Origin: Vreelandella halophila
GTDB lineage: Bacteria > Pseudomonadota > Gammaproteobacteria > Pseudomonadales > Oleiphilaceae
Assembly (NCBI RefSeq): GCF_019903425.1
Contig: NZ_JACHUZ010000013.1
Span: 2,238,361-2,302,360, forward strand
DNA: 64,000 bases
Direction: 5' to 3'
Shown: in pieces, positions 25,975-43,552 of the stretch
Layout: each line of letters starts with the position of its first letter
Numbering within the stretch: position 1 is the stretch's first letter
Notes under the pieces: model-generated
Seen by the model: only the letters and a program-made list of their open reading frames with translations
Told to the model about the DNA's origin: nothing
Databases searched by the model: none
Translations under genes and position numbers: made by a program

Positions 25975-31530
<5,556 letters not shown>

Positions 31531-31705: not shown

Positions 31706-33739
31706 ATGAAGGTTGTTGATTCGTTCCCCCGCACCGTCCGTGAAATCGAGAACACCTGGATCACCATGCCCGACGGTTGCCGTCTGGCCGCCCGCATCTG
31801 GTTGCCGGAAGACGCCGAGGAGCATCCGGTGCCGGCCATCCTCGAATGCATGCCGTATCGCAAGCGCGATTTCACCCGCTTAAGGGACGAGCCCTTGCAC
31901 CATTATCTGGCCGGGCATGGCTACGCGTCGATTCGACTGGATCTGCGGGGCTCAGGGGATTCGGACGGGCTTATCCTGGATGAGTACCTGCAGCAGGAAC
32001 AGGACGACTGCCTCGCGGTGCTGGACTGGATCACCAGCCAACCCTGGTGCTCCGGGCCGGTGGGCATGTTCGGCATCTCCTGGGGTGGCTTCAACGCGCT
32101 GCAGGTGGCTGCGCACCAGCCGGAATGCCTGAAGGCGATCATCACGATGTGCTCCACCGACGATCGCTATGCGGATGATGCCCACTACATGGGTGGCTGC
32201 CTTCTGAACGAGAACCTCAACTGGGGCTCGGTGTTTTTCGCCACAGCGGCCTTTCCGCCGGATCCGGCGCTCTACGGGGACGACTGGCGCGAACAGTGGC
32301 GCTACCGGCTGGAGAACCAGGTCCTGTATCCGGCGGTCTGGATGCGCCACCAGCAGCGCGATGACTACTGGAAACATGGCTCGGTCTGCGAGAACTTCGA
32401 CGACATCCAGTGTGCCGTCTATGCCGTGGGCGGCTGGGCGGACGGCTATCCCAATGCCATTCCCCGCATGATGGAAGGCCTGAGTGCGCCGCGTAAGGCG
32501 CTGATCGGGCCCTGGTCCCACGCGTTTCCGCATAACGCGCTGCCGGGACCGGCCATCGGCTTCTTCCAGGAAATGCTGCGCTGGTGGGACTACTGGCTGA
32601 AGGATATCGACAACGGCATTATGGACGAACCGCCGATGCGCGTCTGGATGGAGGAGCATGTGCCGCCGGCACCGCTCTATGAATACCGTCCGGGGCGCTG
32701 GGTGGCGGAACCGACCTGGCCCTCTGAGCGCATCCACAACGAAACCCTGTACCTCAATGTGCTGTCAATGGGGCGCAAGGCGGAGCCGGAGGACCGGATG
32801 CGGATTACCTCCCCAGAGACCACGGGACTGGCCGGTGGTGACTGGTACGGCTTTGGTGGTGAAGGGGAGATGGCCATCGACCAGCGGGAAGATGACGGCA
32901 AATCCCTGGTCTTTGACGCCGATACGGTTTCGGAACGCATCGAGATCCTGGGCGCACCGGTGGCGGAACTGGAAGTGACGGTGGACCGGCCGGTCGCGTA
33001 CGTGATCGTGCGCCTCAATGACGTGGCGCCGGACGGGGCCTCGACGCGGGTCACCTGGGGCGTACTCAACCTCACCCAGCGTGAAAGTCGCGAACACCCG
33101 GAACCCCTGGAGGCCGGCAAGCGCTACCGCGTGCGCGTGCAGATGAAGGATGTTGCTTATGCCTTCGCCCCGGGCCACACCATGCGCCTGGCGGTATCCA
33201 CCAGTTACTGGCCCATGATCTGGCCGGCACCGGAGCCGGTTCGCCTGACGCTCCATACCGGCGTCAGTTCGCTGCAGCTGCCTGTGCGCCCGCCGCGCGA
33301 GGAGGACGAGCAGCTGCGCCCCTTCGAACCACCGGAGCGCGGCCCACAGTCCGAGCCGGAAGCGCTCAGCTCCGGGGATTTCCGCCGCACCGTGGAGCGT
33401 AACCTGATCAATAACGAAACGACCTACCGCATCTACAATGAGGGGGGTGATTTCGGCGGTGCCTCCCTGGCCTATATTGAGGATATTGATCTCACGGCCG
33501 GGTACAGTCTGGGCAAGTGGTTCCGCACCCATGAATACGACGCCAGCGGGGCCGAGGCCCGGATTGATCAGAACTGCATTCTGCAGCGCGATGACTGGTC
33601 AGCACGGGTGGCGTGCGTGACCCGGCTGACGGCCGATCCGCAGCATTTCCGGTTGCGCGCCACGCTCCATGCCTACGATGGCGATGCGCTGTTTTTCGAG
33701 CGCGAGTGGGACGAGTGGATTCCCCGCCACCTGATCTAG
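31706..33739 (+). CDS. CocE/NonD family hydrolase, copy 1
   Basis: 677-aa serine hydrolase of the CocE/NonD (peptidase S15-like) family, which cleaves esters or amides such as alpha-amino-acid esters, cocaine or X-Pro peptides. The alpha/beta-hydrolase part (about 20-330) has the nucleophile Ser125 in GISWGG, a catalytic Asp candidate in GGWADGYPN and the His in GPWSHAFPH. A jelly-roll C-terminal domain follows (about 370-550, with APDGASTRVTWGVLNLT), then a tail of about 110 residues conserved in the two other copies here. There is no signal peptide, so it acts inside the cell, unlike many family members. It is closely related to the genes at 36.3 and 39.8 kb but is the most divergent of the three. 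The next gene is convergent. Confidence 0.9.
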   Translation: MKVVDSFPRTVREIENTWITMPDGCRLAARIWLPEDAEEHPVPAILECMPYRKRDFTRLRDEPLHHYLAGHGYASIRLDLRGSGDSDGLILDEYLQQEQDDCLAVLDWITSQPWCSGPVGMFGISWGGFNALQVAAHQPECLKAIITMCSTDDRYADDAHYMGGCLLNENLNWGSVFFATAAFPPDPALYGDDWREQWRYRLENQVLYPAVWMRHQQRDDYWKHGSVCENFDDIQCAVYAVGGWADGYPNAIPRMMEGLSAPRKALIGPWSHAFPHNALPGPAIGFFQEMLRWWDYWLKDIDNGIMDEPPMRVWMEEHVPPAPLYEYRPGRWVAEPTWPSERIHNETLYLNVLSMGRKAEPEDRMRITSPETTGLAGGDWYGFGGEGEMAIDQREDDGKSLVFDADTVSERIEILGAPVAELEVTVDRPVAYVIVRLNDVAPDGASTRVTWGVLNLTQRESREHPEPLEAGKRYRVRVQMKDVAYAFAPGHTMRLAVSTSYWPMIWPAPEPVRLTLHTGVSSLQLPVRPPREEDEQLRPFEPPERGPQSEPEALSSGDFRRTVERNLINNETTYRIYNEGGDFGGASLAYIEDIDLTAGYSLGKWFRTHEYDASGAEARIDQNCILQRDDWSARVACVTRLTADPQHFRLRATLHAYDGDALFFEREWDEWIPRHLI

Positions 33740-33770: not shown

Positions 33771-34805
33771 CTATCGATGGGCGCCGCTGCGCGCCAGGGC
33801 GGCTTCCAGGATCATGCGCAGCATCTCCGCATAACTGTAGCCCGCCCAGGAGGCCATCATCGCCATCTTGCCGTCCCAGTACCAGGTGGGGTTGGTATTG
33901 GCGTCAATCAGCCGTGGCACGCCGTCGCCGCCGCAGCGGAAATCAATGCGTGAGTAGTCGCGGAATCCCAGTCGCTTGAACAGCTTGGCGCAGGCGTCGA
34001 CCATCTGCCCCCGGGTGACGTCGTCCAGCTCCGCCTGAAGGAAACTGAGTTTGTCCCAGTAGGGCGAGTCCGGGTCCGCCTTGGAGCCGTGGGTGAGGAT
34101 GGGCGGTAGGTCGGAGTCCAGCTTGCTGTAGTCGATCACCAGGGGAGGCAGCACGGTAAAGCCGCTGGCCGGGTTGCCGATCATGCCTACGGTGTACTCA
34201 TCGCCGGTGAGGAAATCCTGGCAGATGGCTTCCGGTGGATACAGGTCCTGCCTGGCGAGCCACTGCAGATAGGCGTGCGCCTCTGCGGCGTCGTGCACAA
34301 CGCAGTTTTCGGTGATGCCGAAACTGCCACCGCCGCCATTGGGCTTGATCAGCGACGGAAAGGAGGTGGGCAGGGTCAACGGGTCGGCGGTGAGATCCAC
34401 AAAGGTCTCGTTGGGCACGGGGATGTCCAGGCTCACCGCCAGTGCCCGTACGATGGCCTTGTCGGTGCCCAGGCTGATGCCCATGGGGTCGGCGCCGGTG
34501 TAGGGAATGCCCAGCATTTCCAGGAATGCGGGGATGTTGCGCTCCAGGTCCCAGTCGTTGCGGAAGCCGGTGTCACAGAGATTGAGTACAAGGTCCGGCC
34601 TGTCGCTGCGCAGGTCGTCGATCAGGCGTTCGTGGTCGTCGTAGTAGGTGAAGTGATAGCCCTCCAGCTCTGCGAGTGAGGTCTTCAGCTGGCGGACCGC
34701 CTCGATTTCCTCGTAACCGAACCGGTTATCCACGGCGTAGGGGTAGGGCAGTCGGGGATCACCCAGGACGACGCCGATTTCAGGGGTTTTACTCGATTGG
34801 GCCAT
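33771..34805 (-). CDS. D-alanine-D-alanine ligase-like ATP-grasp enzyme
   Basis: 344-aa ATP-grasp protein resembling D-Ala-D-Ala ligase but not a typical Ddl. The N-terminal domain (about 1-110) contains NLCDTGFRNDWDLERNIPAFLE, then GIPYTGADPMGISLGTDKAIVR as in Ddl. The ATP-binding lysine is Lys154 in LIKPNGGGGSFGI. The magnesium-binding end reads RIDFR ... LIDANTNP, with Asp301 and Asn303, where Ddl has a Glu-x-Asn. The product should be an amide or peptide bond formed through an acyl phosphate. It has its own divergent promoter facing the ligase-hydrolase operon, with GGAG before the ATG. Wall synthesis is possible but unlikely given the neighbours; it probably joins amino-acid-like substrates in this cluster's pathway. 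Confidence 0.8.
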   Translation of the reverse strand: MAQSSKTPEIGVVLGDPRLPYPYAVDNRFGYEEIEAVRQLKTSLAELEGYHFTYYDDHERLIDDLRSDRPDLVLNLCDTGFRNDWDLERNIPAFLEMLGIPYTGADPMGISLGTDKAIVRALAVSLDIPVPNETFVDLTADPLTLPTSFPSLIKPNGGGGSFGITENCVVHDAAEAHAYLQWLARQDLYPPEAICQDFLTGDEYTVGMIGNPASGFTVLPPLVIDYSKLDSDLPPILTHGSKADPDSPYWDKLSFLQAELDDVTRGQMVDACAKLFKRLGFRDYSRIDFRCGGDGVPRLIDANTNPTWYWDGKMAMMASWAGYSYAEMLRMILEAALARSGAHR

Positions 34806-34936: not shown

Positions 34937-36253
34937 ATGAGTTCCGAATCCCCAAAAGATAACGCCGTCAAGCAGGTGTATGTGCTCGGCATGAATGAGT
35001 TCAACCGGGCCAAGCTGGAATCCCTCCCGGGCGCGGAACACTACCGTTTCCATGGTGTTCTGACGCCCGAAGAAATCCTGTACGCGGACAACTTCCCGAT
35101 TGAATCCATGCTCAGCCGAGCTGAGAAACAGCTCCAGGAGGCGGATCCGGCCCCGGATGCCATCGTTGGCTACATGGACTTTCCGGTGAGCACCATCCTG
35201 CCCATTCTGACCGGGCGCCTGGGGCTTCCGGGGCTGGATCTGCGGGCCATGCTCAAGTGTGAGCACAAGTATTGGAGTCGGTTGGAACAGCAAGCGGTTG
35301 TGCCGGACTTCATTCCCCGTTTCCAGCTGGTGGATCCCTTTCTCGACTCGCCCGAGACCCAGCTCGAACTTGCGTACCCGTTCTGGTTGAAGCCGGTGAA
35401 ATCGGCAGGCTCCTATCTCGGGTTCCGTATTGACGACGAAGCCGCCTTCCACCGGGCGGTGGCCGAGATCCGGGAGCACATCAACCGTATTGCAGAGCCT
35501 TTCGACCGGATCCTTGAATACATTGAGCTGCCCGACAATATCGCGGCGGTCGGCGGTCATTACTGTCTGGCGGAAGCGTTGCTCACGGGGGATATGTGCA
35601 CCCTTGAGGGTTATGTCCATCAGGGCGAAGTCCATGTGCACGGGGTGGTGGACTCGGTGCGGGAAGCCAACAGCTCTTCCTTCGCCCGCTACCAGTACCC
35701 GTCCCAGATGCCGCAGTCGGTCACCGAGCGGATGGAGGAGGTGGCGCGCAAAACGCTGCAGCGCATTGGCTTCGATGGTTCCGCGTTCAACATCGAGTTC
35801 TTCTGGGACAGCAGCACGGATAAAGTCAGCCTGTTGGAGATCAACACCCGGATCGCCCAGCACCACAGCGACCTGTTCGACAAGGTGCACGGGGTCTCCA
35901 ATCATCAGGTCGCGGTCGAGCTGGCGCTCGGTCACGACCCCAAATTCCCTGCTGCCCGGGGCAGGTTCAAGTGTGCCGCCGCCTTCTGGCTGCGCCGGCA
36001 TGAGGACGCCTGGGTGGCCGATGTGCCGTCCGGGCAGACATTGGCGGCGATTGCCGAGGATTACCCCGGTACCTACGTGGAGCTGGATGTGCATCCGGGC
36101 ATGTGGCTGTCCGAGCTTCACGACCAGGACAGCTACAGCTACGTGCTGGCACTGATCTATGTGGGTGCTGATACCCATGAGCAGTTGATGGCCAACCATA
36201 GTGCCATTGTTGAGCGGCTCAGCTTTGACCTCAGAGACGGTCCTGACCGCTGA
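34937..36253 (+). CDS. stand-alone ATP-grasp ligase
   Basis: 438-aa carboxylate-amine ligase of the ATP-grasp superfamily. The N-terminal domain (about 12-110, VKQVYVLGMNEFNR) precedes a linker with MLKCEHKYWSRLEQQAVVPD. The ATP-binding Lys152 is in FWLKPVKSAGSYLGFR and the magnesium residues Glu301 and Asn303 in LLEINTR. A C-terminal domain of about 90 residues ends with LSELHDQDSYSYVLALIYVG. It is clearly paralogous along its whole length to residues about 130-556 of the cupin-ATP-grasp fusion at 41.9 kb. ATG 34937 was chosen because the upstream extension to 34676 lacks similarity and crosses the divergent promoter. It heads a run of five co-directional genes. The acyl and amine substrates are unknown; the order of genes suggests one of two successive ligations. 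Confidence 0.85.
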   Translation: MSSESPKDNAVKQVYVLGMNEFNRAKLESLPGAEHYRFHGVLTPEEILYADNFPIESMLSRAEKQLQEADPAPDAIVGYMDFPVSTILPILTGRLGLPGLDLRAMLKCEHKYWSRLEQQAVVPDFIPRFQLVDPFLDSPETQLELAYPFWLKPVKSAGSYLGFRIDDEAAFHRAVAEIREHINRIAEPFDRILEYIELPDNIAAVGGHYCLAEALLTGDMCTLEGYVHQGEVHVHGVVDSVREANSSSFARYQYPSQMPQSVTERMEEVARKTLQRIGFDGSAFNIEFFWDSSTDKVSLLEINTRIAQHHSDLFDKVHGVSNHQVAVELALGHDPKFPAARGRFKCAAAFWLRRHEDAWVADVPSGQTLAAIAEDYPGTYVELDVHPGMWLSELHDQDSYSYVLALIYVGADTHEQLMANHSAIVERLSFDLRDGPDR

Positions 36254-36327: not shown

Positions 36328-38349
36328 ATGCACACAAGGAGCGATTGGCCCAGGGCGGTTCGGGAACTGGAAAACGTATGGATTCCCATGCCGGACGGCT
36401 GCCATCTTGCCGCGCGGATATGGCTGCCCGAGGATGCCGAGGCGCATCCGGTGCCGGCCATCCTGGAATACATTCCCTACCGCAAGGCCGACCTGCGCAC
36501 CAAGGAAGATTCCATCAATCACCCTTATTACGCGGGCCATGGCTATGCCGGTGTCCGGGTGGACATCCGTGGCAGCGGCGAGTCCGAGGGCGTGCTCACG
36601 GATGAATACACGCAACAGGAGCTCGACGACGGACTGGCGATTCTGAGCTGGATCGCCGCGCAGCCCTGGTGTACCGGCCGTGTCGGGATCATGGGGATTT
36701 CCTGGGGTGGTTTTAACGGCCTCCAGATCGCCGCCCTCCAGCCGCCCGAGCTGTATGCGGTGCTGACGGTGTGCTCCACGGATGATCGCTATGCCGACGA
36801 TGTGCATTACATGGGCGGCTGCATGCTGATCGACAATGTCTCCTGGGCCGGGGTTATGTTCGCCCACAACAGCTGCCCACCGGATCCACGCCTCTTCGGG
36901 GATGGTTGGCGGGACGACTGGTTCCAGCGCCTGCGGGGCAGTGGGCTCTGGCTGGAGACCTGGAGCAGTCACCAGGCGCGCGATGATTTCTGGCGCCATG
37001 GGTCCGTGTGCGAGGATTTCAGCGCCATCCGCTGCCCGGTGTATGCGGTGAGCGGCTGGGCCGACGGCTATTCCAACAGCGTCTTTCGCCTGATGCAGCA
37101 CCTGGATGTCCCCCGCAAGGGTCTTGTGGGTCCCTGGAGCCATAAGTACCCGCACCTGGGTAAGCCCGGTCCCGCCATTGGCTTCCTCCAGGATACGCTG
37201 CGCTGGTGGGATCACTGGCTCAAGGATGAGGCGACCGGCATCATGGAAGAGCCGCAGGTCAGAGTGTGGATGCAGGACAGTATCCGGCCCGCGACCCGTT
37301 ATGCGGAGCGTCCCGGGCGCTGGATCGGGGAGAATGAGTGGCCCAGCCCGCGCATCGAGAACCAGCAGCTTCGGCTGACCCGCAACGGTCTGGAGCGCGG
37401 TGACACGGCAGGCACCAGTGAGGCACTTCTGTGCCAGTCGCCGCTGCGCACCGGCCTGAGTGCCGGCAAGTGGTGTTCCTATTCCGCCGGCCCGGACATG
37501 CCGGGGGACCAGCGCGAGGCGGATGGGGATTCCCTGTGCTTTGATACGGAGCCGCTGTCGGAAGCGGTTGAGATCTTTGGCCCGCCCGTGGTGGAGCTGG
37601 TTCTGGCCAGCGACCAGCCTGAGGCCCAGGTCGCGGTGCGGTTGTGTGACGTGGCCCCGGACGGGGCCTCAACCCGGGTAACCTACGGGGTTCTGAACCT
37701 CAGCCACCGGGACAGCCACGCCGAGCCGGCGTCCCTGGTGCCCGGTGAGACCTATCGCGTGCGCGTCCAGCTCAATGAAATCGCCCAGAATTTCCCGGCG
37801 GGCCACCGTATTCGCGTCAGTGTAAGCTCAAATTACTGGCCCCTGATCTGGCCGTCGCCGGACGCCACGGCACTGACCCTCTGGTCGGAGGTCAGCACCC
37901 TGGCACTGCCGGTACGCCCGCCCAGCGAGGTTGATCGGCAACTCCCCGAGTTTGCGCCGCCCGAGGGCGCACCCTACGTGTCGATGACCGAAATCGAGGC
38001 CGAGGCAACGAACTGGTCACTGCATTACGATTTTGATGCGAACGCCCATACGCTGGAAGTCGATGATTCCGAGGGGATATTCCACATCGACGCCACCGGT
38101 ACGGATGTCCAGAAGAGCGGTTACGAGCGCTACCGGATCGAGGGTGACGATGTTAACTCGGCCCAGGCTGAAACGTTCTGGCGCATGGGTTTTTTCCGCG
38201 ATGACTGGCGAGTGAACACTGAAACCTGGACGCGGATGAGTTGCACCTCCGAGGCGTTCCGGATTGAGGCCACGCTCAGGGCGTATGAGCACGGGGAGCT
38301 GGTCTATGAGCATGACTGGGATCGGTTGATTCCACGCCGGAACCTCTAG
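36328..38349 (+). CDS. CocE/NonD family hydrolase, copy 2
   Basis: 673-aa paralogue of the 31.7-kb gene. The catalytic serine is again residue 125 (GISWGG), with GWADGYSNS and GPWSHKYPH supplying the Asp and His. The opening HTRSDWPRAVRELENVWIPMPDG aligns with the other copies, so the N-terminus is complete and cytoplasmic. The jelly-roll region includes APDGASTRVTYGVLNLSHRDSH, nearly the same in copy 3, to which it is closest. Upstream, the 74-bp gap after the ligase gene holds a small CCGGGC/GCCCGG hairpin (36273-36288) and GAGGAGATG before the start. Retention of three intact copies in one locus suggests related but distinct substrates, or different cleavage steps. Confidence 0.9.
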   Translation: MHTRSDWPRAVRELENVWIPMPDGCHLAARIWLPEDAEAHPVPAILEYIPYRKADLRTKEDSINHPYYAGHGYAGVRVDIRGSGESEGVLTDEYTQQELDDGLAILSWIAAQPWCTGRVGIMGISWGGFNGLQIAALQPPELYAVLTVCSTDDRYADDVHYMGGCMLIDNVSWAGVMFAHNSCPPDPRLFGDGWRDDWFQRLRGSGLWLETWSSHQARDDFWRHGSVCEDFSAIRCPVYAVSGWADGYSNSVFRLMQHLDVPRKGLVGPWSHKYPHLGKPGPAIGFLQDTLRWWDHWLKDEATGIMEEPQVRVWMQDSIRPATRYAERPGRWIGENEWPSPRIENQQLRLTRNGLERGDTAGTSEALLCQSPLRTGLSAGKWCSYSAGPDMPGDQREADGDSLCFDTEPLSEAVEIFGPPVVELVLASDQPEAQVAVRLCDVAPDGASTRVTYGVLNLSHRDSHAEPASLVPGETYRVRVQLNEIAQNFPAGHRIRVSVSSNYWPLIWPSPDATALTLWSEVSTLALPVRPPSEVDRQLPEFAPPEGAPYVSMTEIEAEATNWSLHYDFDANAHTLEVDDSEGIFHIDATGTDVQKSGYERYRIEGDDVNSAQAETFWRMGFFRDDWRVNTETWTRMSCTSEAFRIEATLRAYEHGELVYEHDWDRLIPRRNL

Positions 38350-38398: not shown

Positions 38399-39712
38399 AT
38401 GACGGACCGTTGCGACTACATTGACGCCACCCGGGTTCGGCGGCGGCTGGTGGACCTGATCCGGATCCCGTCGGTGACCGGGCAGGAGGATGCGGTGATC
38501 GCCCGGCTCGCCGAGTGGCTCAATGAGCTGGGTGTGGAGGTTGACCACTGGAACGAGGGTATTGCGGATGTCCTCACGGATCCCAACTACCCGGGCCATG
38601 AGGTGGAGCGCGCTTGGCTGCCGGTGGTTGTCGGCGTGGTGCGGGGGCGCAAGCCGGGCCCCACGGTGGTGCTGACCGGGCACCTGGACGTTGTCCCGCC
38701 AGGCGACACCAGCCAGTGGACGATGGATCCGTATTCAGGGTATATGGACGGCGATACCGTCTATGGACGTGGCGCCAGTGATATGAAATCCGGCGTCGTT
38801 TCGGCTCTGGAAGCCTTCGAGGCCTTTGCCCAGGGCCAACGGGACTTCGCCGGTCGGGTTGTATTCGTGGGCGTGCCGGCGGAAGAGGACAGCGGCCTCG
38901 GCACGCTCGCTGCCATCCGCCGGGGCTGGCAACCGGATGCCGTGGTGGTGCCGGAACCCACCCTGGATGACGAGGGCTCGCCCAAGCTGGTGGTTGCCCA
39001 TGCCGGCGCCATGTCGTTCTTCCTGGAAGTGATGGGACTGGCGGCCCACGCCAGCCGGCGGCACCTGGGGGAGAGCGCCCTGGATCATTACCTGGCGGTC
39101 CACAAGGCCCTGCGCGAGGACGAAAAGCGCATCAATGACGCGGAGGACCACCCGCTGATGCGGGCCCTGCACCTGCCGTACGCCACCAACGTGGGTCTGA
39201 TCAACGGGGGTAACTGGTCGTCCAGCGTGATGGACCGGCTCACGGCGGAGATCCGCGTCGGGGTGACGCTCGACGAAACCGTGGAGCAGGCGAAGGCGCG
39301 GATTCAGCGGGTGATTGCCGAGGCCTGCGCAGGCGATCCCTGGCTTGAACAGAACCCGCCCCAGGCGCGGCTCATGGCGTCTGGTTTCGGTTCCGCGCAT
39401 ACCCCCATGGAGCATCCACTGGTCACCACAATGGCGGATGCGGCGGCCTCGGTTTTCGGGCGTCCGGCGCGCATCACGGGAGCGCCCTATGGTTGCGACA
39501 TGTCGGCCTGGGTGCGGCTTACCGGGGCCTCCACCGTCGTCTATGGGCCCGGCGATATCGACTGGGCTCATTCCGCGGACGAACGGGTGTCCCTGGAGGC
39601 CACGGAGAAGGTGGCGCACGTGCTCGTCCAGGCGACGGAGAAGCTGCTGACCTTCAGGCCCGAGGAACTGCGCCTGCAGGATTATGGAGAAAACGCGACT
39701 GGAGGAGAGTGA
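38399..39712 (+). CDS. M20 family metallopeptidase (ArgE/DapE/ACY1 type)
   Basis: 437-aa zinc amidohydrolase. The metal site is readable: His95 in TGHLDVVPPG, an Asp in GRGASDMKSG, the catalytic/ligand pair Glu162-Glu163 in VPAEEDSG and a His near the C-terminus (DWAHSADERV). The lid/dimerisation domain (about 205-310) contains MGLAAHASRRHLGESA. Relatives deacylate N-acyl amino acids or cleave dipeptides (ArgE, DapE, aminoacylase). The lack of a signal peptide places it in the cytoplasm. It lies between CocE copies 2 and 3 on the same strand. In this setting it could release an acyl or amino-acid group from the product of the ligases, serving salvage or turnover. The exact substrate cannot be told. 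Confidence 0.9.
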   Translation: MTDRCDYIDATRVRRRLVDLIRIPSVTGQEDAVIARLAEWLNELGVEVDHWNEGIADVLTDPNYPGHEVERAWLPVVVGVVRGRKPGPTVVLTGHLDVVPPGDTSQWTMDPYSGYMDGDTVYGRGASDMKSGVVSALEAFEAFAQGQRDFAGRVVFVGVPAEEDSGLGTLAAIRRGWQPDAVVVPEPTLDDEGSPKLVVAHAGAMSFFLEVMGLAAHASRRHLGESALDHYLAVHKALREDEKRINDAEDHPLMRALHLPYATNVGLINGGNWSSSVMDRLTAEIRVGVTLDETVEQAKARIQRVIAEACAGDPWLEQNPPQARLMASGFGSAHTPMEHPLVTTMADAAASVFGRPARITGAPYGCDMSAWVRLTGASTVVYGPGDIDWAHSADERVSLEATEKVAHVLVQATEKLLTFRPEELRLQDYGENATGGE

Positions 39713-39827
39713 TGGCTTTTACCGCGTACCGATGGCGCCGGCGCAAGCCAACCCCTATTATGCAGATAGATGCAGAAATCATGCGCAAAATGACCCCGAT
39801 ATCCGGGCTATAAGGAAAACAGCCGAA

Positions 39828-41849
39828 TTGAAAACCGTTACGTCCTTTCCCCACGCGACCAAGCACCTTGAACACGTATGGATCCCGATGTCCGATGGTA
39901 CCCGCCTGGCGGCGCGCATCTGGATGCCGGAGGATGCCGAGAACAATCCGGTGCCGGCGATCCTCGAATACATCCCCTATCGCAAGCGGGACAATACCCG
40001 TTCCAGGGACGCGCTGAACCATCCCTATTTCGCCGGGCACGGCTATGCCAGCATCCGGGTGGATATACGCGGCAGCGGCGATTCCGAAGGTGTCCTGCAG
40101 GATGAATACCTGCAGCGGGAACTGGACGACGGGGTGGAAATCATCCGCTGGATCGCGCAGCAGGACTGGTGCAGCGGTTCGGTAGGCATGATCGGCATCT
40201 CCTGGGGTGGTTTCAACGGCCTGCAGATTGCCGCCCTGAGACCGCCCGAACTCAAGGCCGTCATCAGTGTCTGCTCCACTGATGACCGTTACGCAGACGA
40301 CGTCCACTACATGGGCGGCTGCATGCTGACGGATAACCTTTCCTGGGCGTCAACAATGTTTGCCTACACCAGCCTTCCGCCGGATCCCGAACTGGTGGGG
40401 GAGAAGTGGCGCGATATGTGGCTGGACCGGCTGGAGCACAGTGGCCTCTGGCTGGAAAACTGGCTCGAGCACCAGCGCCGGGACGACTTCTGGCGTCACG
40501 GCTCCATCTGCGAGGACTTCTCGGCGGTGCAGTGCCCGGTGATGGCGGTCAGTGGCTGGGCCGATGGTTACTCCAACAGCGTATTCCGGCTGCTGAGCAA
40601 TCTTGACGTGCCCACCAAGGGGCTGGTCGGACCCTGGAGCCACATGTACCCGCACATGGGTAAGCCAGGGCCCGCCATCGGGTTCCTGCAGGAATCCGTG
40701 CGCTGGTGGGATCACTGGCTCAAGGGGAAGGACACGGGCATCATGGATGAGCCGGATTTCCGCGTCTGGATGCAGGACAGCGTCCCCCCTGCAACGGAGT
40801 ACACGCGACGGCCGGGGCGCTGGATTGCCGAGCCGGGCTGGCCGTCGTCCAATGTCCGTGAAACCGTCTATGGTCTGAGTGAGGGCCATCTCGTCAATCC
40901 CGGTACGCCGGTCAGTGACACGCCCTTATGGATCCAGTCGCCCCTGAGTCTGGGCCTGTTCGCGGGTAAGTGGTGTTCCTACAGTGCGACACCGGACCTG
41001 CCCCATGACCAGCGCGAGGAAGATGGCGGTGCGCTGGTGTTCGACACCGAGCCCCTGAGCGAACCCCTGGAGATCATGGGGGCGCCGGTCATCGAGCTGG
41101 AGCTGGAGGCGAACAAGCCCCAGGCAATGATCTGTGTCCGCCTCTCGGATCTGGCCCCGGACAACAAGGCCACCCGCAGCACTTACGGCATGCTCAATCT
41201 CAGCCACCGGGACAGCCACGCCGAACCCAGCCCGATGGTGCCTGGCGAACGCTACCGGGTGGCGGTGCAACTGAACGACATCGCCCAGCGTTTCCCGGCG
41301 GGCCATCGCCTGCGGATCTCAATTTCCACCTCTTACTGGCCGCTTGCCTGGCCGGCCCCGGAGCTCGCCTGTCTGACGGTCCATCCGACGGGCAGCCAGC
41401 TGCGCCTTCCGGTGCGGCCGCCACGTGATTCGGATGCGGCGTTGCCAGACTTCGGCGAGCCGGAATCAGCGGCCGCCATTGCCACGCCCTACACGCAGGC
41501 ACCTGAGCAGAACTGGCGGGTAATCCGCGATCTGTCCAGGGACGAGTCCATACTGGAAGTGATCAAGAACGACGGGACCTTCACCATTGAGGAGATCGGT
41601 CTCACCATGTGGAGCGATACCCGCGAGTGGTATACCCATGTGGGCGAGGATTTTGAATCCATGCGCGGGGAAACGCATTGCGTCAGTGGAATGGCCCGTG
41701 GCGACTGGTCCATAGAAGTAACAACGCGCACGGTGCTGACCGCCAGCCGGAGCCATTTCCACGTCTATGCGGAACTCGATGCCTACGAGGGCGATGAACG
41801 CGTCGTTGCCAGGAACTGGAACACCCATGTGCCACGGGATCATCTTTGA
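39828..41849 (+). CDS. CocE/NonD family hydrolase, copy 3
   Basis: 673 aa from a TTG start at 39828. I prefer this start because it puts KTVTSFPHATKHLEHVWIP in register with the N-termini of copies 1 and 2, gives exactly the same length as copy 2 and has AAGGA about 11 nt upstream. The open frame to 39684 overlaps the M20 gene and adds unrelated sequence. Nucleophile Ser125 in GISWGG, GWADGYSNS and GPWSHMYPH complete the triad. The C-terminal domain shares APDNKATRSTYGMLNLSHRDSH with copy 2. It precedes the cupin-ATP-grasp gene by 32 bp, so the two are surely co-transcribed. Confidence 0.9.
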   Translation: MKTVTSFPHATKHLEHVWIPMSDGTRLAARIWMPEDAENNPVPAILEYIPYRKRDNTRSRDALNHPYFAGHGYASIRVDIRGSGDSEGVLQDEYLQRELDDGVEIIRWIAQQDWCSGSVGMIGISWGGFNGLQIAALRPPELKAVISVCSTDDRYADDVHYMGGCMLTDNLSWASTMFAYTSLPPDPELVGEKWRDMWLDRLEHSGLWLENWLEHQRRDDFWRHGSICEDFSAVQCPVMAVSGWADGYSNSVFRLLSNLDVPTKGLVGPWSHMYPHMGKPGPAIGFLQESVRWWDHWLKGKDTGIMDEPDFRVWMQDSVPPATEYTRRPGRWIAEPGWPSSNVRETVYGLSEGHLVNPGTPVSDTPLWIQSPLSLGLFAGKWCSYSATPDLPHDQREEDGGALVFDTEPLSEPLEIMGAPVIELELEANKPQAMICVRLSDLAPDNKATRSTYGMLNLSHRDSHAEPSPMVPGERYRVAVQLNDIAQRFPAGHRLRISISTSYWPLAWPAPELACLTVHPTGSQLRLPVRPPRDSDAALPDFGEPESAAAIATPYTQAPEQNWRVIRDLSRDESILEVIKNDGTFTIEEIGLTMWSDTREWYTHVGEDFESMRGETHCVSGMARGDWSIEVTTRTVLTASRSHFHVYAELDAYEGDERVVARNWNTHVPRDHL

Positions 41850-41881: not shown

Positions 41882-43552
41882 ATGATCTATCGTCACGTTA
41901 ATGAGCTTGCTGATACCAACCGGGTTGTATCAGGACCCAACTATTCAAGCCGGCGCCTGATCCGCCGCGATGACCGTATGGGTTATTCGCTGCATGACAC
42001 CATCATGCAGGCCGGAACCGAGAATCGTTTCTGGCACAGGCATCACATGGAAACCGTCTACTGCATCCGTGGCGAAGGGGAGGTGGAAACCATCCGGGAT
42101 GGTACGCGTCACCCCCTCAATCCCGGGGCCGTGTACGCACTCAGCCAGAACGAGGAGTACGTTGTAAGGGCGCATACTGAGCTACAGCTCCTTTGCGTCT
42201 ATTATCCAGCACTGGCTGGTGATGAGGTTGAGGACGAGAATGGCTCATTCAGCCAGTTCGGCGAGGAGACCGTCTTCGTTATCGGGCTGAACGACTTCAA
42301 CCGGGAAATGCTGGCCACCATTGACATGGCGGACCACTACAACTTCGTGCCGCTGCTCGATTCCCGGCAGATCCTGGAGCAACAGAAATACGAGATCCAG
42401 GACATTATCCAGCAGGCCAAGAAACAGATTCGGGAGCACAAAGGGGCGGTGGACGGCGTTATCCACTACATTGATTTCCCCGTCAGCACCATTGTACCCA
42501 TCATCTGTGATGCCTTCGATCTGGCTTCGGCAAGCCTGGAATCCGTGCTGAAATGCGAGCACAAATACTGGAGCCGGATTGAACAGCGGGCCGTCGTTCC
42601 GGATAACATCCCGACATTCACCGCATTCAATCCGTTTGACGAGCAGGCCCTGGACAGGGTGCTTGAAGTCATGGACTTCCCGTTCTGGATCAAGCCGGTG
42701 AAATCCTTCTCCTCGTACCTCGGGTTCCGGATTGACGAGGCTAGCCAGTTCCACGAGGCAATGAAGGAAGTGCGGGACAACATCGGCCGTTTCTCGGGCC
42801 CGTTCAACTACCTGCTCGACATGGTCACCATGCCGCCGGAATTCGATGAGATTGGCGGTGAGTACTGCATCGCCGAGAGCATCATCGGCGGCATGCAGTG
42901 CACCCAGGAAGGCTTCTCCTGCAAGGGCGAAGTGGAGGTGTACGGCACCGTGGATTCCTTCCGCGAGGCCAACCTCACCACGTTCTCCAGTTACCAGTAC
43001 CCGACCATTCTCCCGGACGAGGTGCAGGACCGGATGACCGAGATCACCCAGAAGGTGGTCAGGCGTATCGGTTACGACAATGCGCCGTTCAACATCGAAT
43101 ATTTCTGGGACCGGGAAAAGGATCAGATCTGGCTGCTGGAAATCAATACCCGTATCTCAGAGTCCCATTGCCGGCTTTTCCAGAAGGTGGATGGCCGTTC
43201 CCACCACCAGGTGGCCGTGGAACTGGCCGCCGGGCGTCGACCGACCTTTCCGCATCGTCAGGGCAGATTCGAGGTCTCGGGTAAATTCTTCCTGCGCGAG
43301 TGGGAGGATGCCTATGTGGCGCAGGTTCCCAGCGAGGAAACGGTCCGCCGGATCGAACAGGAAATCATCCCCGACTCCACCATCCAGATCGTCGCCGAGC
43401 CCGGCCAACGCCTGTCAGACCTGATGGACCAGGACAGTTACAGTTACCGGGTGGCGCTATTGTTCCTTGGGGGCTCCTCCAAGCAGGACCTTGAGAAGAA
43501 GCGCCGCCAGTGCGAGGAATTGCTGTACCAGGAGTTCGTGTTCGAGCGCTAG
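41882..43552 (+). CDS. ectoine-synthase-like cupin fused to ATP-grasp ligase
   Basis: 556-aa two-domain protein. Residues 1-125 are homologous to ectoine synthase EctC, with HHMETVYCIRGEGEVETI and CVYYPALAGDEVEDENGSF aligning without gaps. At the EctC iron-ligand positions Glu57 and Tyr85 are kept, but position 93 is Tyr instead of His. EctC closes a cyclic amidine by removing water, so this domain may form or open a ring. Residues 130-556 are an ATP-grasp ligase paralogous to the 34.9-kb protein, with ATP-binding Lys271 in FWIKPVKS and magnesium residues Glu420 and Asn422 in LLEINTR. It ends the five-gene run and is followed by a hairpin. No ectA, ectB or ectD lies in the window. The fusion implies that cyclisation and ligation act on one substrate. 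Confidence 0.88.
   Translation: MIYRHVNELADTNRVVSGPNYSSRRLIRRDDRMGYSLHDTIMQAGTENRFWHRHHMETVYCIRGEGEVETIRDGTRHPLNPGAVYALSQNEEYVVRAHTELQLLCVYYPALAGDEVEDENGSFSQFGEETVFVIGLNDFNREMLATIDMADHYNFVPLLDSRQILEQQKYEIQDIIQQAKKQIREHKGAVDGVIHYIDFPVSTIVPIICDAFDLASASLESVLKCEHKYWSRIEQRAVVPDNIPTFTAFNPFDEQALDRVLEVMDFPFWIKPVKSFSSYLGFRIDEASQFHEAMKEVRDNIGRFSGPFNYLLDMVTMPPEFDEIGGEYCIAESIIGGMQCTQEGFSCKGEVEVYGTVDSFREANLTTFSSYQYPTILPDEVQDRMTEITQKVVRRIGYDNAPFNIEYFWDREKDQIWLLEINTRISESHCRLFQKVDGRSHHQVAVELAAGRRPTFPHRQGRFEVSGKFFLREWEDAYVAQVPSEETVRRIEQEIIPDSTIQIVAEPGQRLSDLMDQDSYSYRVALLFLGGSSKQDLEKKRRQCEELLYQEFVFER

Follow-up and report, generated by a model that had tools for sequence, protein, structure and literature searches.

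The window analysed here is a stretch of 64,000 nucleotides from Vreelandella halophila (NCBI RefSeq assembly GCF_019903425.1, contig NZ_JACHUZ010000013.1, positions 2,238,361 to 2,302,360 of the forward strand). It encodes a protein, EctC-AG, in which a cupin resembling the ectoine synthase EctC is joined to an ATP-grasp ligase domain, AG2; the ligase family is called AG below. A preliminary description of the window had proposed this domain combination, and the coordinates and open reading frame (ORF) that it gave for the gene were exact. The ATG of EctC-AG lies 32 nucleotides after the stop codon of the hydrolase gene CocE3, with AAGGAAGG 5 nucleotides upstream of the ATG. Residues 1–124 matched PF06339 (Ectoine_synth; E=1.5e-44, 151.8 bits, cut-off 27) and P. 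lautus EctC (5onm; E=2.3e-33, with one single-residue gap), and the protein also passed the family profile test of NCBIfam NF009806 (143.8 bits, cut-off 128). Residues 265–424 matched ATP-grasp_4 (38.8 bits, cut-off 27), and the joining of the two domains was borne out. AG2 exceeded the Pfam cut-off with the general profiles ATP-grasp_4 and CPSase_L_D2 only and gave no NCBIfam match at 1e-5. A sequencing error that merged two genes was ruled out by the uninterrupted frame in each of the 12 fused loci that we found.

Table 1. Features of the EctC-AG locus, in coordinates of the window.
Feature	Coordinates	Strand	Basis or remark
EctC-AG: EctC-like cupin and ATP-grasp ligase	41882..43552	+	556 aa, intact ORF
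EctC-like cupin domain, residues 1-125	41882..42256	+	PF06339, AlphaFold model
Codon 52: His replaces conserved Tyr52	42035..42037	+	Residue comparison, codons
Codon 93: Tyr replaces iron ligand His93	42158..42160	+	Residue comparison, codons
Codon 117: Glu replaces conserved His117	42230..42232	+	Residue comparison, codons
AG2: ATP-grasp ligase domain, L-amino-acid-ligase-like	42260..43549	+	Full-length model, 3vot_B match
CocE3: CocE/NonD (S15) hydrolase, directly upstream of EctC-AG	39684..41849	+	ORF start; homology begins near 39810, probable true start
M20 ArgE/DapE-type deacylase/peptidase	38399..39712	+	TIGR01910 242.4 bits, cut-off 217.6
CocE2: CocE/NonD (S15) hydrolase downstream of AG1	36328..38349	+	Profile matches
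AG1: free-standing ATP-grasp ligase of the family of AG2, 438 aa	34937..36253	+	From ATG at 34937; ORF opens at 34676
D-Ala-D-Ala-ligase-like ATP-grasp protein, divergent	33771..34805	-	Dala_Dala_lig_C 45.1 bits; below NCBIfam Ddl cut-offs
CocE1: CocE/NonD (S15) hydrolase	31706..33739	+	Profile matches

The fold of each half was examined in predicted structures. A full-length model (51 aligned sequences) had a mean predicted local distance difference test score (pLDDT) of 90.4, and a fold search with it gave a list taken up entirely by ligases, owing to the larger size of that domain; the EctC domain was therefore searched separately. The AlphaFold model of this domain alone (24 sequences; pLDDT 93.2) matched the five solved EctC entries with Z 19.3–20.0, the next cupin following at 14.8. 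The best match, 5bxx_B (Z 20.0, root-mean-square deviation (rmsd) 0.9 Å over 113 residues), identified the EctC cupin fold. The preliminary description had held that a predicted structure without an EctC-like metal pocket would speak against its reading; the prediction is EctC-like, an answer that applies to the level of the fold only. The ligase part matched best the L-amino acid ligase 3vot_B (Z 31.7, rmsd 3.2 Å, 369 residues), followed by the glycinamide ribonucleotide (GAR) synthetase 4dim (Z 29.5), YwfE/BacD (28.4–28.6) and, lower in the ranking, RizA (27.0), while Foldseek placed 4dim first and BacD second. The profile of the ligase family matched 3vot as well (E=4e-8). The ligase is thus closest in fold to dipeptide (L-amino acid) ligases, and the fold by itself leaves the substrate unfixed.

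The codons confirmed that Glu57 and Tyr85 are kept and that position 93 is Tyr, leaving the iron triad Glu57/Tyr85/His93 incomplete. The numbers, which the preliminary description had attributed to the P. lautus enzyme, are those of S. alaskensis EctC (PMC4795551); owing to the single-residue gap they do not fit P. lautus EctC, whose ligands are Glu57, Tyr84 and His92 (PMC6344544). The window protein has further, linked changes that were missed earlier, with Tyr for Trp21, His for Tyr52, Tyr for Phe107 and Glu for His117. Four of the 13 residues listed as strictly conserved in 440 EctC-type proteins (PMC4795551) are changed in the window protein, namely Tyr52, His93, Phe107 and His117.

We compared the 12 fused domains with 58 free-standing EctCs, a control set biased to high-scoring EctCs; none was dropped. 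His93 (P. lautus His92) was present in 58/58 free-standing proteins and in 0/12 fused domains, where Tyr (six), Ile (four) or Val (two) takes its place. His117 (P. lautus His116) was found in 57/58 controls, the remaining one ending before the site, and again in none of the fused domains. The other differences were graded: Phe106 in P. lautus numbering (58/58 free-standing versus 1/12 fused), Tyr52 (58/58 versus 6/12), Trp21 (57/58 versus 7/12) and Tyr85, the P. lautus Tyr84 (58/58 versus 11/12, with Leu in the fused locus L037). The six fused domains with Tyr at position 93 all have His52, and the six with Ile or Val there all have Tyr52. Ser23, Arg25, Thr40, His55 and Glu57 were retained in all 70 proteins, and Ser23, Arg25, His38, Thr40, His55, Glu57 and Glu115 were invariant in the 12 fused domains. 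The cupin retains the EctC substrate and product contacts Ser23, Arg25, Thr40 and Glu57 as well as His55 and Glu115, which as a pair keep the C-terminal lid in place. In S. alaskensis EctC, His93Ala left 8% of activity and 4.5% of the iron, while His117Ala left 44% and Phe107Tyr 95% of activity (PMC4795551); in P. lautus EctC, 12.7% of activity was left by His92Ala (PMC6344544). Among 582 EctC-type proteins, orphans included, iron-contacting residues were reported to be unaffected by variation (PMC6344544), and the fused domains, all lacking His93, therefore fall outside the described range of EctC. The earlier expectation that ordinary ectoine synthesis is unlikely was upheld by this loss in 12/12 fused versus 0/58 free-standing proteins, and we regard it as very probable that the fused protein is not an ordinary ectoine synthase. 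Two solitary, lower-scoring EctCs outside the control set (L143 and L144) have His92, as judged by eye.

The fusion is genuine, rare and conserved. A scan of a set of genome contigs with P0001 gave 125 loci encoding a relative, of which 80 were kept, and all counts out of 80 below cover these; the scan was seeded on short peptides of the query, and distant fusions were missed. Six of the kept loci (L033–L038) matched from residue 1 to at least residue 552, and their sources are 'Vreelandella utahensis' 22507_15_FS, Halovibrio salipaludis, Halospina denitrificans, a Halomonas metagenome-assembled genome (MAG), an Alcanivorax MAG (74%) and Ectothiorhodospiraceae WFHF3C12 (50%). Of 369 gammaproteobacterial genomes searched with PF06339, 53 had EctC over the cut-off and two had the fusion, the window's own genome and G335; 61 genomes related to G335 yielded four more (G426, G435, G436 and G439), and among 398 genomes of the phylum the fusion occurred in the own genome only. 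The search for further EctC–ATP-grasp fusions that had been suggested earlier brought the total to 12 loci with the window included; they come from three or more lineages of Gammaproteobacteria, and several are near-copies (the window, L033 and L034; L162 and L163).

In a quick maximum-likelihood tree of 55 ligase domains, in which long branches were flagged elsewhere, the 11 fused rows formed one clade with a Shimodaira–Hasegawa-like approximate likelihood ratio test (SH-aLRT) value of 99, divided into Halovibrio/Halospina/L037 and f184/L038 subclades. Because the fused ligase domains form one clade, the fusion likely arose once, as judged by the ligase sequences. Six AG1 ligases from fused clusters made up a separate clade (SH-aLRT 99), grouped (96) with halomonad, rhodobacterial and some other ligases. 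In the tree of the EctC domain, whose 126 columns are too few to decide, the fused rows fell into two groups and a single clade was not rejected (approximately unbiased test, p 0.33). The ratio of nonsynonymous to synonymous substitution (dN/dS), calculated by the method of Nei and Gojobori (NG86) with dS partly saturated, was about 0.04 for the EctC domain within Halovibrio/Halospina, which is purifying selection, and 0.02–0.09 for the ligase; against L037 it was about 0.14 for both alike. Within the f184/L038 clade the EctC domain reached 0.2–0.38 versus 0.06–0.15 for the ligase, and the cupin is therefore much less constrained there.

EctC-AG is mostly co-inherited with a module of AG1, CocE and M20 genes. 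In 77/80 loci a CocE/S15 hydrolase gene is found no more than 600 bp from the ligase gene, the exceptions being L038, L079 and L104. The M20 gene (at least 60% identity) occurs in 10 of the 11 fused clusters besides the window, four of these ten belonging to one genus, and in 0/74 unfused loci, a number of them spanning just a few kb (two matches of 25–26% were not counted). In the five f184 genomes AG1-CocE-M20 lies on one strand and EctC-AG on the other, with G436 split across two contigs. The Ddl-like ligase also adjoins the AG family in L190 (59%) and L227 (42%). AG and CocE genes are often doubled in tandem, as AG-AG-CocE in L102, L192 and L195 and as three CocE genes in the window between 31706 and 43552, and these copies look as if the pair had diversified locally. 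Farther upstream in the window, an 1851-aa ORF (25975–31530, + strand) reads by eye as a double-length UvrA.

Among the 80 loci, families that we identify as cyanophycin synthetase, cyanophycinase and isoaspartyl dipeptidase were found in 29, 28 and 21, respectively. These family counts rest on long-ORF gene picks that include antisense frames (component 3), codon-scored picks being better, and the family identities were confirmed by NCBIfam for four members from the 80 loci and three from L161. Cyanophycin genes directly precede AG1 in three of the five f184 fused genomes (G426, G435 and G436), and Rhodovulum 12E13 (L084) carries cphA-AG-CocE, after which ask, ectC and ectB lie on the opposite strand. 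Neither cphA nor cphB was among the eight scanned cluster proteins of the window, and iadA was likewise not seen in its cluster; the own genome has cphA far from the window (C13:436473-439058). Cyanophycin synthetase was over the cut-off in 17/369 genomes of the class, four of which also have AG. In G335, IucA/IucC-type siderophore genes lie directly downstream of the fused gene (L148, 834–4538). A role in siderophore assembly was considered on account of these and of neighbouring GNAT and Lys/Orn monooxygenase genes; four sister genomes have other genes there (by eye), and the arrangement was taken as chance.

The absence of ectA, ectB and ectD stated in the preliminary description held within the window for ectA and ectB, for which there was no match (ectD was not searched for), but not for the genome, which has ectA over the cut-off and a canonical ectC at 197 bits. 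Its best ectB match reached 215.5 bits against a cut-off of 552.2 and scored best as 4-aminobutyrate transaminase, and ectB was below the cut-off in all five genus genomes searched. The ectA gene adjoins an apparent aspartate kinase gene (by eye) with no ectB or ectC between, and ectC is solitary on another contig (L215, 4028–6076; L146, 5701–6090). In the 369 genomes of the class, AG occurred in 20, EctC over the cut-off in 53 and both in nine (EctC in 9/20 AG genomes versus 44/349 others; Fisher p 0.0006). In the phylum sample of 398, with matches counted at E<=1e-20, AG occurred in 10 genomes, EctC in 53 and both in eight (8/10 versus 45/388; Fisher p 2e-6). Both p values treat genomes as independent, which genomes are not, and some genomes are in both samples; G708, whose match was weak (24% identity, residues 190–542), was not counted as having AG. 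A dependence of the ligase family on ectoine in general was ruled out by 11/20 AG genomes of the class sample without EctC over the cut-off. As a separate observation, L145 (86–973, + strand) encodes a 295-aa protein with two tandem EctC domains. Inspection by eye finds all three iron ligands in the first domain and Val in place of Glu57 in the second; the next ORF reads like a methyltransferase.

Our preferred reading, held tentatively, is that EctC-AG is an amide ligase of the dipeptide type, driven by ATP, to which an EctC cupin was recruited as an N-terminal domain for ligand binding. The ligase step is read from the fold and the ATP-grasp match, and AG2 is probably an amino-acid amide ligase. 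The binding role of the cupin is read from the residues kept and lost, and that it mainly binds or regulates has, on this comparison, slightly less than an even chance. With its iron chemistry weakened or gone, the cupin would bind ectoine, N-acetyl-diaminobutyrate or another small amino acid like these, and the bound ligand would select the substrate for, or switch, the ligase behind it. The ligase would activate one amino acid by phosphorylation and join it to an amine, and reopening of the amides would fall to CocE and M20. For the product and physiological role we turned to the neighbouring genes alone: the module may make and recycle a small amide-linked amino-acid compound, as a solute or nitrogen store, in hosts that are often ectoine producers. 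This suggests that an old enzyme has been reused to steer a little-known amide-making pathway. Several observations weigh against such an assignment. The substrate contact Trp21 is Tyr in 5/12 fused domains, and in the Halovibrio clade His52 together with Tyr93 could restore a metal site. The GAR synthetase is nearly as close to the ligase in fold and comes top by Foldseek. Both M20 and CocE are missing from the surroundings of the fused locus L038, the 11 AG genomes without EctC show the ligase family as such to be independent of ectoine, and the cyanophycin link is limited to the 29 loci and absent from the window. In the f184 genomes, the EctC domain is 51–70% identical and the ligase 83–84%, as would be expected for a mere scaffold.

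The main rival, which we consider rather unlikely, develops the idea of the preliminary description: a bifunctional enzyme with a rewired metal site, whose cupin cyclises or opens an acyl-diamino acid and whose ligase couples the product to an amine. The coupling half of that idea agrees with the amino-acid-ligase fold, but the cupin activity is opposed by the loss of both histidines in every fused member; metal binding through the side chain of residue 93 is excluded in the second clade, which has Ile or Val there, and L037 has Leu for Tyr85. In the Halovibrio clade His52, Glu57, Tyr85 and Tyr93 could possibly serve as ligands, His52 standing in for His93. The strict pairing of positions 52 and 93 looks compensatory, although each set is one clade and perhaps a single event; Glu57 and, but for L037, Tyr85 persist; in one S. 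alaskensis structure Tyr52 is directed towards the iron from 3.9 Å away, and the Phe107Tyr exchange is nearly neutral in EctC (PMC4795551). Across both clades, however, no alternative metal ligand is kept besides Glu57 and His55. It is unlikely that the cupin is a structural remnant that merely supplies a dimer interface or stabilises the ligase, without binding anything: the two lost functional histidines and the faster change of the EctC domain in f184 genomes would suit it, but the seven residues listed above are invariant in 12/12 although a scaffold could do without the pocket, and the dN/dS near 0.04 in Halovibrio/Halospina also speaks against it. Less probable again is a two-step enzyme in which a metal-exchanged cupin would make a cyclic amidine, ectoine-like or from glutamine, to which the ligase would add an amino acid, giving a novel ectoine-type dipeptide solute with CocE and M20 for its recall. 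A slow but working ectoine synthase complementing an unusual ectoine route in the genus is very improbable; it would account for the profile scores above the Pfam and NCBIfam cut-offs and for ectA in a genus in which 0/5 genomes have ectB over the cut-off, but it conflicts with the four changed residues of the strictly conserved 13 and with the genome's own canonical EctC.

Literature searches, with subscription papers mostly outside their reach, found no paper linking ectoine synthase or cocaine esterase with ATP-grasp, and none joining L-amino acid ligase, cupin and bacilysin, or ATP-grasp and Xaa-Pro dipeptidyl-peptidase in a gene cluster. Searches on ATP-grasp dipeptide solutes or Halomonas cyanophycin dipeptides gave nothing fitting (a glutathione review; green sulfur bacteria), broader ones nothing fitting by title and start of abstract among the papers listed, and none of the terms looked for occurs in a C. 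salexigens salt RNA-seq paper. The module is thus without a description in the literature searched, and, with the iron histidine gone from all fused members found, their EctC domains stand apart from described EctCs. The ATP-grasp/CocE pair itself occurs in several phyla, with no assigned product found, and many of the organisms have salt-loving names, in our reading of these.

Among known systems, the L-amino acid ligases BL00235, YwfE/BacD and RizA share the ATP-grasp fold of AG2 (Z 27.0–31.7) at only 13–18% identity, and to our knowledge they carry no fused cupin. In the bacilysin pathway a cupin, BacB, and BacD act as separate proteins, an analogy of logic only. The N-acetylglutaminylglutamine amide (NAGGN) system combines an ATP-grasp ligase and a peptidase for an amide osmolyte, but its models were the best hit of none of the eight scanned cluster proteins. 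Cyanophycin clusters (cphA-cphB-iadA) are close to the AG-CocE pair in three of the fused clusters and in many loci of halomonads and rhodobacteria; Sharon et al. 2023 reported a cocaine-esterase-like gene in one cyanophycin cluster, and that paper has no mention of 'ATP-grasp' (PMC10206079). EctC itself (P. lautus 5onm/5onn/5ono, S. alaskensis 5bxx/5by5) shares the cupin fold at 35–43% identity and has Glu57, Tyr85, His55, Arg25, Thr40 and Glu115 in common with the window protein, whereas the fused members are joined to a ligase, lack His93 and His117 throughout and lack Tyr52 in half. Orphan EctC-type proteins likewise stand outside an ect operon with another EctC in the genome (PMC6344544, PMC5924519), but their iron-contacting residues, changed in the fused domains, do not vary (PMC6344544). 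The role of EctC-type proteins outside ectoine operons has been described as not yet clear (PMC6344544), and the conserved fusion makes this question testable, since it links an orphan-type EctC domain with a few constant partner genes and with a chemistry that is probably the formation of amino-acid amides.
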